This document shows positions 4,512 to 38,180 of a stretch of DNA of 64,000 bases, piece by piece. The DNA is from Aureibaculum luteum. GTDB taxonomy: Bacteria > Bacteroidota > Bacteroidia > Flavobacteriales > Flavobacteriaceae. Within the stretch, counting starts at the first letter, position 1. The number at the start of each line of letters is the position of its first letter. Under the pieces are notes generated by a model. It had not been told where the DNA came from. It ran no database searches and worked only from the letters and a program-made list of their open reading frames with translations. The translations under genes and the position numbers were made by a program. The stretch lies in NCBI RefSeq assembly GCF_003449015.1, contig NZ_QRGD01000013.1:1-64000 (forward strand). The letters run 5' to 3'.

Positions 4512-5105
4512 CCAAATATAAGAAATATAGTTACCAATAATTTTGAATATTTACACCTTTTTAATTGAGTATTAATAATTAAGTTTCTTTGTCCCCTAGA
4601 ACGGTCGTTTTACGGAATTAAGAAATATCTCAAATTACTTTTAGAATATTAGTTCCATTGACCTTTCTTTTTAGAAGTTTTGTTAATTAACCTTTTACAG
4701 AACTAAATTGAATTGTAATTATAATCAATTATTTAAACTTTTTACTCAGTTCCTGTTAACACTTTGATTTGCATTATTTCTCCTTAGTGATGTAGAACAA
4801 ATGAAATATATTGTTTATGAAAAAAGTTTTTATATATACTTTCAACATTTTTACAATAAAAAAGTAGCTCTAATGCATGTTGTGAATTACTTCATTTGGT
4901 GGTCACTTGGATTATCATAACACACGAATCAAGGGTTTCAATTTTACTTGATGTTTCAATTTTAGTGGAAATATCTTATAGTACGAAGATCGTAGGTTGT
5001 ATTGAATTTCTCCTGCGAAACCACTAAAGTTATTTGCGATCGCGTTGGTAACAATCTTTTATTATAATTGTAACTTAAGTTAATAATAAAGTTCTTGTTG
5101 TAATA
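4512..5105. other. Long AT-rich intergenic region
   Basis: No convincing gene. A minus-strand frame from about 5100 down to 4962 reads like the last strands of an outer-membrane barrel (aromatic, alternating pattern with NLSYNYNKRLLPTRSQ). It lacks a proper start and overlaps the next gene's promoter, so at most it is a decayed fragment. Confidence 0.3.
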
Positions 5106-32851: not shown

Positions 32852-33982
32852 CTAAGAAAATTTTAAGACAGGAATGCTATTTGCAGCCTCTTTCATTTTA
32901 GTATCTATTATTTTGGCATAAATTTCGGTTGTTCTTATTTCTTTGTGTCCAAGTCTTTTGGATACAGTATAAATATCTGCTCCATTTTCTAATAACAAAA
33001 CGGCATTCGTATGTCTGGCACTATGAAAAGTAATATGTTTTGTTATACCTGCACGCATACACCACCGTAAAATTTCTGAATTAAAATGAGCACCGTATTT
33101 GAGACCTGTAAAAACTCTATCATTTTGGTTTTCTCTTTTTCCTAGTAGTGCTCTGGCCTGATCAGATATATACAAATATTCAAGCCCATCAGTTTTTTTC
33201 TGCCTAAAAATGACTCGAGGTTGTTCTTCTTCATCTCTTACTTCTGACCAGATTAGTTTATTGATATCACTCCATCGCAGCCCTGTAAGACAACTAAAAA
33301 TAAAAGCATTTTTTAAAACCGGGTGTTTGCAACTGGCCTTACTTAAAGCTTGTAATTCTGAATATGTGAGATATTCCCTTTTGGATTCCCCTTGGTCGAA
33401 CCCTTTAACCATTCGTACTATATTTGTATCTAAATAACCTTGGTTAAAAGCCTCAGTTAATGCAGCTCTAATTTTATTGAAATAGGTATATTTAGTATTC
33501 TGAGATAAGGGAGTGTTGCCAGTGGTTTTGGCTTCTGTATGTAAGTATTTTTTAAATCCTTTTAAAAAATCTTCATTAACATCCTTTATCATCAAATTAG
33601 CTGGACAATAGCGTTCTAAATGTTTAAAGGCGGCTTCCCAATTATCATAATTGCCTTTACTTTCATATCGGTCTTCTTTAAGTTTGTTGTAATAAGTTAA
33701 AAATAAAATTTTACCTTTTTTATCGTCCTTTATACTGAACTTACCTTTAATATAATCTGATTTCTTAATAGTAAGAATATTCTGGGCTAACTGCATTGTT
33801 TCTTTATTATACTTTTTTTCATTTGCAGTAATTGGATTTTCATGGAGATAAAGTTTTAAGTATTCAAAACTCCTATGGTGTTTCATCTTCCCGTTTTTAT
33901 CAATTAAGTACCCTAAGTAGTATTCTAAAAATAGGGTAATACGTCCGTTTGCAATTTTTCTTTTTCTTAAACTAATCTTCAT
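32852..33982 (-). CDS. Tyrosine-type site-specific integrase
   Basis: 376 residues with the three-part layout of Bacteroidota integrases: an arm-binding N-terminus, a core-binding SAM-like domain (~residues 95-190) and the catalytic domain. The catalytic residues are Arg236 (TGLRWSDI), His320-x-x-Arg323 (FHSARHTNAV), His346 (RLGHKEIRTT) and Tyr355 (EIYAKI), a complete set, so the enzyme may be active. It is flanked by two excisionase-like proteins, and mnmE follows on the same strand. The element around it seems small or eroded. Confidence 0.95.
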   Translation of the reverse strand: MKISLRKRKIANGRITLFLEYYLGYLIDKNGKMKHHRSFEYLKLYLHENPITANEKKYNKETMQLAQNILTIKKSDYIKGKFSIKDDKKGKILFLTYYNKLKEDRYESKGNYDNWEAAFKHLERYCPANLMIKDVNEDFLKGFKKYLHTEAKTTGNTPLSQNTKYTYFNKIRAALTEAFNQGYLDTNIVRMVKGFDQGESKREYLTYSELQALSKASCKHPVLKNAFIFSCLTGLRWSDINKLIWSEVRDEEEQPRVIFRQKKTDGLEYLYISDQARALLGKRENQNDRVFTGLKYGAHFNSEILRWCMRAGITKHITFHSARHTNAVLLLENGADIYTVSKRLGHKEIRTTEIYAKIIDTKMKEAANSIPVLKFS

Positions 33983-34021
33983 AATTGATGTTTTAATAGT
34001 TATTTATGTTCCACAAATAAA

Positions 34022-34381
34022 TTATCGTACTTCGAATAACCTATCTATTACAGATCTTTTAATTCTTGTCACCCTTTGCCCCAAATTAACAGCTTCAATA
34101 TAACCACAATTGATATTGTAGTAAATTACCCTATTAGAACAGTTTAAAAGTGTAGCGGCTTCTTTTACCGTTAAAAATTCTTTAGCTTTTATTACCTCTA
34201 GTGAAAAGGTTATTTCTTCTTTGGACTCTTGATTGCTTTTTGCAATTTTTGTCTCTCTTATTTTCTCTTTATAATGACGACTATTACATTTATGTGAACA
34301 GTATTTGGTCGAAGTCGTTCGTGCCGTAAATTCATTTTTACAGTACTTGCAAATTCTCTGTATTTTAATATTACTACTCAT
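34022..34381 (-). CDS. Zinc-ribbon plus excisionase-like DNA-binding protein
   Basis: 119 residues. The N-terminus carries a four-cysteine zinc-binding motif (CKYCKNEF and YCSHKC, residues ~11-32). The C-terminal half is an excisionase/MerR-type helix-turn-helix (LTVKEAATLLNCSNRVIYYNINCGYIEAVNLGQR). It lies 39 bp upstream of the integrase on the same strand, so it is likely co-transcribed. Upstream is a region with repeated TGGTGTAA motifs that could be its operator. It probably regulates or directs the integrase. Confidence 0.82.
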   Translation of the reverse strand: MSSNIKIQRICKYCKNEFTARTTSTKYCSHKCNSRHYKEKIRETKIAKSNQESKEEITFSLEVIKAKEFLTVKEAATLLNCSNRVIYYNINCGYIEAVNLGQRVTRIKRSVIDRLFEVR

Positions 34382-36499: not shown

Positions 36500-36667
36500 A
36501 TGATGAAAATTTTTAGAATTAATTTGCTATAAATTTTGATTTTATTTACATCAATGTTCATCCTTAGCATCAAAACAAACGATTGAAGTTATTGAATATC
36601 AACACCTTATAGTAAATCGTAAAAACTACCCATTTTCCTTGATTTTTAAAATCACCCATTTACACTA
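36500..36667. other. Gap after DUF4870 with a copied 16-mer
   Basis: AAACTACCCATTTTCC at 36469-36484 (inside the DUF4870 tail) recurs exactly at 36623-36638, and in the same reading (NYPFSL). This suggests a small local duplication of the gene's 3' end, although the surrounding bases do not clearly match the rest of the gene. Confidence 0.4.
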
Positions 36668-36698
36668 TTGACTGGTATCGTCTGAGAACATACATTTG
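36668..36698 (+). promoter_or_regulatory. Promoter upstream of the tandem RNA-like array
   Basis: TTG at 36668-36670 and TACATTTG at 36691-36698 with a 20-bp spacer are a near-ideal flavobacterial promoter. Transcription would begin around 36704, some 60 nt before the first repeat unit. No protein gene follows on the plus strand until pheT, which has its own promoter, so the array is the only candidate product. Confidence 0.65.
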
Positions 36699-36762
36699 CT
36701 TTATAAAATTAATATATAATAGAAACGAAAATACGACGTTATAATATCTGAATACTAAAATT

Positions 36763-36828
36763 AGGGGAGAAAGGAGAGGAGTGAAAATTATGAATTAAAG
36801 TTCATATCTACAAGTAACTTTTCTCCTT
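36763..36828 (+). ncRNA. Array unit 1, predicted structured small RNA
   Basis: Outer stem AAGGAGAGGAG (36771-36781) with CTTTTCTCCTT (36818-36828), 11 pairs including two G:U. Inner hairpin ATGAAT (36790-36795), loop TAAA, GTTCAT (36800-36805). Its CTACAAGTA block before the 3' arm differs from other units by one base (GTAA instead of GTAG). The reading frame used by units 2-4 is stopped after MN here. Confidence 0.6.
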
Positions 36829-36883
36829 CTATTAAACTAAAATTAGTATAAATATAAAAATATTACTCTTAGGAGTTTAACTC

Positions 36884-36949
36884 AGGGGAGAAAGGAGAGA
36901 AGTGAAAATTATGAATGAAGATTCAAATCTACAAGTAGCTTTTCTCCTT
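36884..36949 (+). ncRNA. Array unit 2, predicted structured small RNA
   Basis: Outer stem AAGGAGAGAAG (36892-36902) with CTTTTCTCCTT (36939-36949), 11 pairs with one G:U. Inner hairpin TGAAT (36912-36916), loop GAAG, ATTCA (36921-36925). CTACAAGTAG precedes the 3' arm. Identical to units 3 and 4 in the core. Confidence 0.6.
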
Positions 36950-37006
36950 CTATTAAAATTATAATTAGTATAAAATATAAAAGTATTACTCTTAGGAGTT
37001 TAACTC

Positions 37007-37072
37007 AGGGGAGAAAGGAGAGAAGTGAAAATTATGAATGAAGATTCAAATCTACAAGTAGCTTTTCTCCTT
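37007..37072 (+). ncRNA. Array unit 3, predicted structured small RNA
   Basis: Core and following spacer are identical to unit 2, so the predicted structure is the same: an 11-pair outer stem closing at 37062-37072 and a five-pair inner hairpin with GAAG loop. Confidence 0.6.
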
Positions 37073-37129
37073 CTATTAAAATTATAATTAGTATAAAATA
37101 TAAAAGTATTACTCTTAGGAGTTTAACTC

Positions 37130-37195
37130 AGGGGAGAAAGGAGAGAAGTGAAAATTATGAATGAAGATTCAAATCTACAAGTAGCTTTTCTCCTT
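37130..37195 (+). ncRNA. Array unit 4, predicted structured small RNA
   Basis: The core is identical to units 2 and 3. The spacer that follows differs (AAAGAATTGTAAGTATAAG), so the unit duplicated and then diverged first outside the core. 3' arm of the outer stem at 37185-37195. Confidence 0.6.
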
Positions 37196-37251
37196 CTATT
37201 AAAAGAATTGTAAGTATAAGTATAAAAGTATTACTCTTAGGAGTTCAACTC

Positions 37252-37316
37252 AGGGGAGAAAGGAGAGAAGCGAAAGGTTAAGTATGAGCTTAACACTACA
37301 AGTAGCTTTTCTCCTT
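37252..37316 (+). ncRNA. Array unit 5, predicted structured small RNA with rewritten inner hairpin
   Basis: Outer stem 37260-37270 with 37306-37316. The inner hairpin is entirely different from other units yet still pairs: GTTAAGT (37277-37283), loop ATGA, GCTTAAC (37288-37294). CTACAAGTAG and the 3' arm are unchanged. The micro reading frame of units 2-4 is destroyed here by three stops. Confidence 0.6.
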
Positions 37317-37598
37317 ACTATTTTAAAATCAAATTTATTTCTTATTATTTTCTACCATTTTTTCATAAAGTCAATAGTACTATTCACGATAGATTCTTTT
37401 CATATTTTTATCAATCATCTTTTTTCGAACATCGTCAATTTTAATTGAAACACTTTTTTTGGAATAAAAAAAGTTGGCAACTTAGAAATGCAACTATTGA
37501 TAGTACACGTAAATTCATTTTATTAGTTAAAGATCTACAAATGTTCTAGCTTCTTTTAAATTATTTGAAGTAATTAGATGAATCGTTTTAATAGCTAT
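37317..37598. other. Gap after the array
   Basis: An A/T hairpin (ACTTTTTTT at 37452-37460 with AAAAAAAGT at 37466-37474) lies between the array and the convergent miaE-like gene. It could end transcription from either side, but the stem is weak. No gene is seen. Confidence 0.35.
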
Positions 37599-38180
37599 CT
37601 AGCCATGTACCTTAGCCGTTTTGCCTCCTGCTTTCATTAACTCTGCTTCATAGGCTAATAATTGATCCCATTTCTTATTCACAATCTCTTTATCCTGATA
37701 TTTTCTTGCAAAACCTAAGAACAAGGTGTAATGATTGGCCTCAGAAATCATTAAGTCTTTATAGAAGTCAGATAATTCTTGATCTTCCAAATTTTCTGAA
37801 AACACTTTAAAACGTTCACAACTTCTAGCTTCTATAAGTGCTGCAACTAATAAACGTTGTATTAAAGCTTCATTTCTGTCCTTTGTTTTTACAAAAAAGC
37901 TTTGTAAATCTTTGGCATAGTTATTTGATTGAGATCTGCCTAATACCATTCCTCTAGCAGTCATTAAATCATGCACCATTTTAAAATGTTGCATTTCTTC
38001 TATGGCAATTTCGCTCATGGCGGAAACTAACTCTGTTTCTTCAGAGTAGTTTATGATAATAGAAACAGCATTAGATGCAGCCTTTTGCTCTAAAAAAGCG
38101 TGGTCTGTTAATATTTGCTGTAAATCATTTTTGGCAATTTCTGCCCATGAAGTTTCTGTTTCAAATTTAAGTCCTAACAT
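37599..38180 (-). CDS. miaE: MiaE-like tRNA-(ms2io6A)-hydroxylase
   Basis: 193 residues of the ferritin-like di-iron fold. Iron-binding helices appear in order: DHAFLEQKAASNAV, SEIAIEEMQHFKMVHDL, LIEARSCERFKVF and MISEANHYTLFLGFA, giving the paired E...ExxH ligands of MiaE. The family hydroxylates the isopentenyl group of ms2i6A37 in tRNA. It is encoded 5 bp downstream of dnaX on the same strand, so the two are probably co-transcribed. The C-terminus looks complete. Confidence 0.9.
   Translation of the reverse strand: MLGLKFETETSWAEIAKNDLQQILTDHAFLEQKAASNAVSIIINYSEETELVSAMSEIAIEEMQHFKMVHDLMTARGMVLGRSQSNNYAKDLQSFFVKTKDRNEALIQRLLVAALIEARSCERFKVFSENLEDQELSDFYKDLMISEANHYTLFLGFARKYQDKEIVNKKWDQLLAYEAELMKAGGKTAKVHG

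Follow-up and report, generated by a model that had tools for sequence, protein, structure and literature searches.

A tandem array of small-RNA-like units in Aureibaculum luteum and a second array carrying the complement of its conserved 13-mer

A stretch almost free of protein genes in the genome of Aureibaculum luteum (assembly GCF_003449015.1) holds five related structured units in tandem, which raises the question of what such an array encodes and with what it might interact. The window analysed here is the whole stretch of 64,000 nucleotides from contig NZ_QRGD01000013.1 (positions 1 to 64,000, forward strand). A sequence-only reading had described the units as small-RNA-like and of a family that it did not recognise. 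The array, called A below, was found at the place claimed, as five direct repeats on the plus strand with spacings of 121, 123, 123 and 122 bp and unit lengths of 64-65 nt. Pfam and ORF analysis identified its neighbours as MnmE plus DUF4870 on one flank and MiaE on the opposite one. Its features are listed as follows.

36668..36698, plus strand: predicted promoter of array A, TTG-N20-TACATTTG, of the type TTG-N20-TAnnTTTG
36764..36828, plus strand: unit 1, with the 13-mer at 36764-36776 and the outer stem 36771-36782 with 36817-36828
36865..36876, plus strand: possible small hairpin ACTC-TTAG-GAGT in the spacer ahead of unit 2, read by eye
36885..36949, plus strand: unit 2, 13-mer at 36885-36897
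37008..37072, plus strand: unit 3, identical to unit 2, 13-mer at 37008-37020
37131..37195, plus strand: unit 4, core as in units 2 and 3, 13-mer at 37131-37143
37253..37316, plus strand: unit 5, the last of the array, followed by ACTATTTTA, 13-mer at 37253-37265

Each unit opens with the 13-mer GGGGAGAAAGGAG, the strongest constraint in the unit, of which the earlier reading had named only the part lying in the stem. The outer stem that it proposed, AAGGAGAGAAG/CTTTTCTCCTT, together with one further pair, was present in the predicted fold of all three distinct cores, whose z-scores against shuffles were -2.70, -2.46 and -4.55. The proposed inner hairpin also forms in these cores, but it is not general, RNAalifold on 20 Aureibaculum units retaining the outer stem only. 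The block CTACAAGTA, thought to be invariant, was found in 5/5 units of the window but is missing from the Lutimonas-type units described below; the conserved spacer end GGAGTTnAACTC occurs in all four spacers. Units 2 and 3 had been called identical with their spacer: units 2, 3 and 4 have one and the same core, and the 123-nt copies at 36850-36972 and 36973-37095 share 99% identity. Hairpins like that at 36865..36876 also precede units 3-5, and ACTC(C)..(G)GAGT-like pairs occur in the spacers of many relatives. The absence of a protein gene holds for most of the stretch, the only ORF of at least 50 aa over the array being one of 54 aa (37284-37448) that overlaps the array end. Small peptide genes within the units (unit 1 reads ATGAATTAA) were rejected because stops between units break the overlapping frames. 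Elsewhere in the window, two minus-strand ORFs adjoining mnmE (32852-34381) resemble, by reading, a tyrosine recombinase and a small HTH protein. A sixth A-like unit, longer and divergent, lies outside the array in the same genome (L026:3203-3284; G000:C16, minus strand).

In Rfam, the whole window gave no matches, the best hit at a loose threshold in 36500-37800 had an E value of 0.74, below gathering, and eight related loci gave one tRNA and nothing else, so the family was indeed unrecognised. A literature search, partly too broad to tell, found no description of the array. An 80-nt unit query matched 16 of 17 Aureibaculum genomes, the window genome included, and had no match in 43 genomes from other genera of the family and order. 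Covariance model R1 was positive in 9/397 genomes drawn from the family (six strong, three with single weak hits) and in 2/296 drawn from the order, both Aureibaculum. Within the genomes searched, the RNA family was found only in Aureibaculum, Lutimonas and uncultured Flavobacteriaceae. Seven of 36 stretches (L118, L120, L126, L130, L140, L147 and L150) were discarded as chance matches, each a single match with no array, at GC 0.41-0.51 and in foreign taxa. The search for a phage or plasmid origin of the array found no match; five pattern hits in IMG/VR, each single and in other sequence, are at about chance level by estimate. One of these five, in a contig of 48% GC (L176:2575-2628), has a single 13-mer with CTTCTCTCCTT and the longer 3' arm, probably by chance.

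Among the unit-bearing contigs of the genus, 16 of 18 have mnmE, DUF4870 or miaE as a neighbour. Copy number at the DUF4870-miaE locus differs among relatives, with five units in the window genome, four in G009 and A. flavum, and two in A. marinum and G016. This variation among close relatives, the near identity of copies 2-4, the contigs of several relatives that end within the array and the two contigs in another context (L026 and L042) are what would be expected of an unexpressed repeat, either an assembly-prone tandem duplication or a mobile repeat. Such an origin is very improbable in view of the shared neighbours, the conserved stem, the lack of a phage or plasmid match and the promoter motif described below.

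Arrays of the same frame also occur in Lutimonas (including G291) and in uncultured relatives, with 4-7 units by the model in uncut contigs. These Lutimonas-type arrays occupy another place at 14/14 loci, flanked by rho/DUF4293 on one side and on the other by a response regulator and histidine kinase. The former two were seen in 13 and the regulator in 7, as the other stretches may end short, and L134 has the regulator and the kinase. Their first and last units differ from the middle ones (e.g. L109:3742-3797 and 4854-4930), the first carrying GGGGGGAAAGGAG and the last AGGGAGTTAGGAG after a strong hairpin, as if the order of units were fixed. The same rho/DUF4293-response regulator locus in Aureibaculum holds a single degenerate unit, C, in 6/6 cases (L060 by Pfam; L090, L093, L094, L097 and L102). 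An older array next to the two-component system may have been moved or copied to give the mnmE-miaE array. Unit C of the window genome is located as follows.

L060:4894-4954 (G000:C1:201893-201953), minus strand: unit C, at the rho/DUF4293-response regulator locus

The motif TTG-N20-TAnnTTTG, which we take to be the Bacteroidetes housekeeping promoter type, was found on the unit strand at 29/29 array starts, 86-116 nt ahead of the first unit and with a spacer of 20 throughout. On the opposite strand it occurred at 0/29, against an expectation of 0.49 from letter shuffles or about 1.3 from the whole-loci rate (0.044 per 220 nt); the shuffles used for the promoter, cofolding and duplex tests preserve single-letter content only. 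The count omits five of 34 loci, namely L026 (missed by the search rule), L134 (array starting at the contig end), L060 and L093 (C) and L059 (B), and the 29 starts are not fully independent, as L037 and L038 share one genome. Given the RNA-family relatives and the promoter motif at all array starts examined, the window array is very probably a multi-unit small RNA, which bears out the first reading of small-RNA-like units.

No intrinsic terminator was detected inside A or in the 250 nt after it in 22 arrays, and no internal TTG-N18..22-TAnnTTTG in any of 28, so that A is probably a single multi-unit transcript, perhaps cleaved afterwards. This bears on the likeness to sibling sRNA arrays noted by the sequence-only reading. 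The tandem siblings PrrF, OmrA/B, AbcR and csRNA also consist of adjoining related copies, two to six of them, whose number varies among species, as given in the available part of PMC4211561. Array A does have at least two related copies side by side, but a single motif of this promoter type was seen, and no terminator inside the array, in place of a promoter and terminator for each copy, so that one RNA with many sites is a closer likeness than a set of independent siblings.

The 12-pair stem was examined in 73 distinct units, a set picked by likeness to the 13-mer and the 3' arm, so that column and pair counts lean towards conservation. The stem is kept in this set, with 98.5% of cells paired, a value reached by 38/500 shuffles (mean 98.1); sliding the stem partner lowers pairing to 52-68%. 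The covariation score was reached by 39/500 shuffles, and two pairs change on both sides, which 7/500 shuffles matched. The stem of A is supported, and its covariation is modest. Pairs 9-13, inside the 13-mer, are invariant in all 73 units. Outside it, pair 15 is GC in 34, GU in 31, AU in 3 and other in 5 units, and pair 19 is UG in 37, UA in 19, CG in 10 and other in 7. Since the invariant pairs all lie inside the 13-mer, something besides pairing fixes the base of the stem.

We counted 86 exact copies of GGGGAGAAAGGAG in the 17 Aureibaculum genomes, with 0 for the control. By place and reading these are 50 in A, 29 in a second array (B), 6 in C and one in a stray A-like unit (L101); a match in A, G013:C172:6-18, runs off its contig, and two G015 matches may be one unit assembled twice. 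The window genome has 12 exact copies and 15 within one mismatch, the backwards control having 1. The A, B and C groups have little in common besides the 13-mer. Units found by the model, a search less biased than the 73-unit set although 7/50 Aureibaculum units come from loci fetched through the 13-mer (L060, L101, L104 and L107), contain it exactly in 50/50 cases in Aureibaculum loci and 40/64 in Lutimonas-type loci. From this model set 33/147 rows had been dropped, mostly opposite-strand or cut matches, plus two first units with variant 13-mers. Among 299 family genomes, leaving aside Aureibaculum, Lutimonas and G184, 14 had one copy and none had more; these are regarded as background, because the backwards control likewise gave one copy in each of 9 family genomes.

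Array B is an element beyond those of the earlier reading. In the window genome it is located as follows.

L059:5255-7198 (G000:C46, about 191254-193197), minus strand: array B, with five units next to a CBS-domain gene and the complement of the A 13-mer in each

At 12/13 loci B has a CBS-domain gene no more than about 1 kb away; the thirteenth, L091, is a contig start, and L099 has the gene on the opposite side. B copies number 1-5 per genome and are 351-510 nt apart, and five of the 17 genus genomes, with completeness of 79-91%, lack an exact B (G001, G006, G010, G013 and G015). A GC hairpin with a T-run follows the anti-13-mer within 160 nt in 23/29 B units (3/5 in the window genome), and none was found in the first 160 nt on the 13-mer strand in 29. 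The T-richer side of 20 such hairpins was the B side in 16 and the other side in 0, with 4 tied, and a forward terminator after the last B unit was absent at 12/13 loci and present in L089, some B loci ending less than 470 nt beyond the last unit. These terminators speak against a reading of B on the 13-mer strand, which was dropped, and the B RNA would therefore carry CUCCUUUCUCCCC, perfectly complementary to the 13-mer of A. The hairpin adjoining the CBS-domain gene may also be the terminator of that gene, or simply that. No A-type promoter fitting B was found on either strand, and a looser motif about 42 nt ahead of the GGGGGAA end of B is suggestive only. Short peptide frames in B were rejected, as they differ from unit to unit; the consensus structure has only 4 pairs, computed in the orientation later rejected. 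The best Rfam hit at a loose threshold in the B region had an E value of 0.005 and 28 bits, where the gathering score is 50. Within B, CUCCUUUCUCCCC is only partly open: taking the first B of each of 12 genomes, its mean unpaired probability is 0.16-0.56.

Cofolding of A with B (three distinct A units with two of the five B units) gave a gain of -14.4 to -20.5 kcal/mol, against means of -2.1 and -3.4 for letter-shuffled B (sd 1.9, best -9.0) and -8.2 and -9.5 for the other B strand. Contiguous A-B pairing is 14 bp in seven genomes, that of the window included, 13 bp in G014 and 17 bp in A. marinum, and with G-U it reaches 19-21 bp in G002, G004 and G005. A units from any genome, however, pair about equally well with the B of these last genomes. 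Matched and swapped A-B combinations gave means of 15.70 and 15.67 bp, the matched mean being reached in 323/10,000 permutations, so that any sign of coevolution outside the core is very slight at most, and coevolution of the A and B flanks was dismissed as a candidate with nearly no signal. Duplexes outside the 13-mer fall within the range of shuffled B in the window genome, and some of those from G002, G004, G005 and G011 beat all 30 shuffles among the results listed. Copy numbers of A and B were correlated (Spearman 0.80, p 0.005; kinship uncorrected) in 10 of the 12 genomes with both, G002 and G005 being omitted for arrays cut by contig ends and G012 counted as 2, with a third unit on another contig.

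We lean, by a little, to the reading that A is a multi-copy sponge that would inactivate complementary B RNAs through a 13-mer toehold. A single promoter of housekeeping type would drive array A (36668 to about 37320), giving an RNA made up of five hairpin units, each with a free 5' tail GGGGAGA beside a 12-pair stem whose 5' strand starts with AAGGAG, tail and stem base together forming the 13-mer. Array B would be read from the other strand into RNAs of about 200-250 nt, if they start near the GGGGGAA end, with CUCCUUUCUCCCC ahead of the terminator. The free tail of A would serve as a toehold that nucleates on UCUCCCC of a B RNA, extends to 13-14 bp and opens the A stem, and A would in this way inactivate the B RNAs. 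This toehold is suggested by the fold of A, in which unit positions 1-7 are mostly free (unpaired probability 0.61-0.99) and positions 8-14 lie in the stem (0.06-0.18). That half of the 13-mer is buried in the A stem counts against the reading. As in sponges that act by extended complementarity to a separately encoded sRNA, the complementarity here is to a separate locus, B being an sRNA by prediction. From features seen at the sequence level (the array, promoter motif, stem, 13-mer, its complement and the B terminators), we infer expression, pairing in the cell and the direction of A acting on B.

A is preferred as the sponge because it looks multi-site and most B units own a terminator. The complementarity is symmetric, and with 9 of the 12 B-holding genomes having two to five copies of B, the roles could be exchanged, A units being the regulators and B RNAs the sponge; we find this doubtful, as A resembles one continuous multi-unit transcript in which terminators are lacking and 23/29 B units have their own, as expected of an independent sRNA, which is a weak argument.

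The closest studied case found for a working A-B pair is the CrfA sponge of Caulobacter crescentus with its four siblings SisA-D (PMC12559287, as far as the available text goes), where one RNA likewise inactivates a sibling sRNA family by base pairing. The action of CrfA, with Hfq, was shown there, whereas the sponge proposed here would be a tandem hairpin array against a second tandem array, as predicted from sequence. Structured sRNAs of Flavobacteriaceae are also on record in Flavobacterium psychrophilum (Rfp1-89, e.g. Rfp18); the available part of PMC9723704 reports no such array.

The conserved 13-mer would also lend itself to another explanation, in which the A units act in trans as ordinary sibling sRNAs, or serve as ribosome decoys. 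Its part AGAAAGGAG resembles an extended Shine-Dalgarno (SD) sequence and would bind the 16S tail of bS21-less ribosomes or compete with the rpsU SD, and B, with CUCCUUUC, would imitate the 16S tail and attach to the leader of rpsU. The rpsU gene of this genome has GAAAGGAGGTG ahead of its ATG, and CUCCUUUC can pair with GAAAGGAGG in that leader. In Flavobacteriales, the extended SD of rpsU is read by bS21-free ribosomes, according to the accessible text of PMC9976891. We nevertheless judge this unlikely: the 13-mer fits the 16S tail at only 9/13 positions, leaving GGGG unexplained, and the stem of A hides half of its SD-like part. Both this fit of 9 nt and the B likeness use a sequence that we presume to be the 16S 3' tail, and a search of five assemblies for the 16S 3' end pattern found none, its three matches being other sequence. 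The five further CTTTCTCCCC sites in the same genome all lie in ORFs, four of them antisense. Antisense action on mRNAs through the 5' tail was rejected on these five sites as well, none being in a leader, with a control count of 3.

A protein site on RNA or DNA, placed in opposite orientation in two otherwise unrelated arrays, would account for the 13-mer being nearly all that A and B share. Some A units (L029, L101, L104 and L107) have (U)UCAUAGCA in the loop, and UCAUAGCA lies on the 13-mer strand of 18/29 B units, its complement UGCUAUGA falling at the collinear antisense position of the B RNA. With UCAUAGCA in both arrays, two shared protein sites fit as well as antisense pairing does. 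Still, a protein site is decidedly improbable: G-U in place of G-C in the stem fits RNA better than a DNA palindrome, and the anti-13-mer in G184, a genome of another genus, sits in a terminator loop. CsrA, the textbook binder of GGA, is absent from the A. luteum genome (the control finds it in 3/14 genomes), and titration of CsrA by A was rejected for that reason. Sponge RNAs of the Csr/Rsm type carry repeated GGA motifs in one RNA. Array A has repeated GGA too, but in the 5' tail and stem and not in loops.

Partners of the Lutimonas-type arrays were sought in two Lutimonas genomes (G291 and G064), with no exact 13-mer or complement outside the array. Their spacers have GGAAAATTGCTATGAATTCC-like hairpins in the same sense as the B RNA (e.g. 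L109:3805-3840, L151), which complement UUCAUAGCAAUUUUCC of the A-sense B strand and, in part, some A loops; ATTGCTAT is on the array strand in 14/14 of these loci, with a few matches outside the array. The G184 hairpin (L112:2282-2343), a terminator with a stem of 12 bp (z -6.35) behind a protein gene, displays the exact anti-13-mer in its exposed loop of 19 nt. It may be a 3'UTR-derived partner RNA, and since about 1/20 of family genomes has one such match, it could also be chance.

The sponge reading can be carried one step further, tentatively and with rather more doubt than confidence, to a two-array riboregulatory circuit in which a 13-nt toehold duplex would open the A stem, the joint rise and fall of A and B copy numbers would act as dosage and B may link to rpsU and bS21-free ribosomes. 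To our knowledge, little is known of sRNA regulation in Bacteroidota. If the two arrays pair, they would constitute a natural toehold-displacement system and a sponge of array against array. Arrays with the promoter motif and the conserved stem are carried by two genera with cultured species, and Aureibaculum has in addition a perfect 13-nt partner, so that type strains such as those of Aureibaculum marinum and A. flavum allow direct tests of binding, sponge action and dosage.
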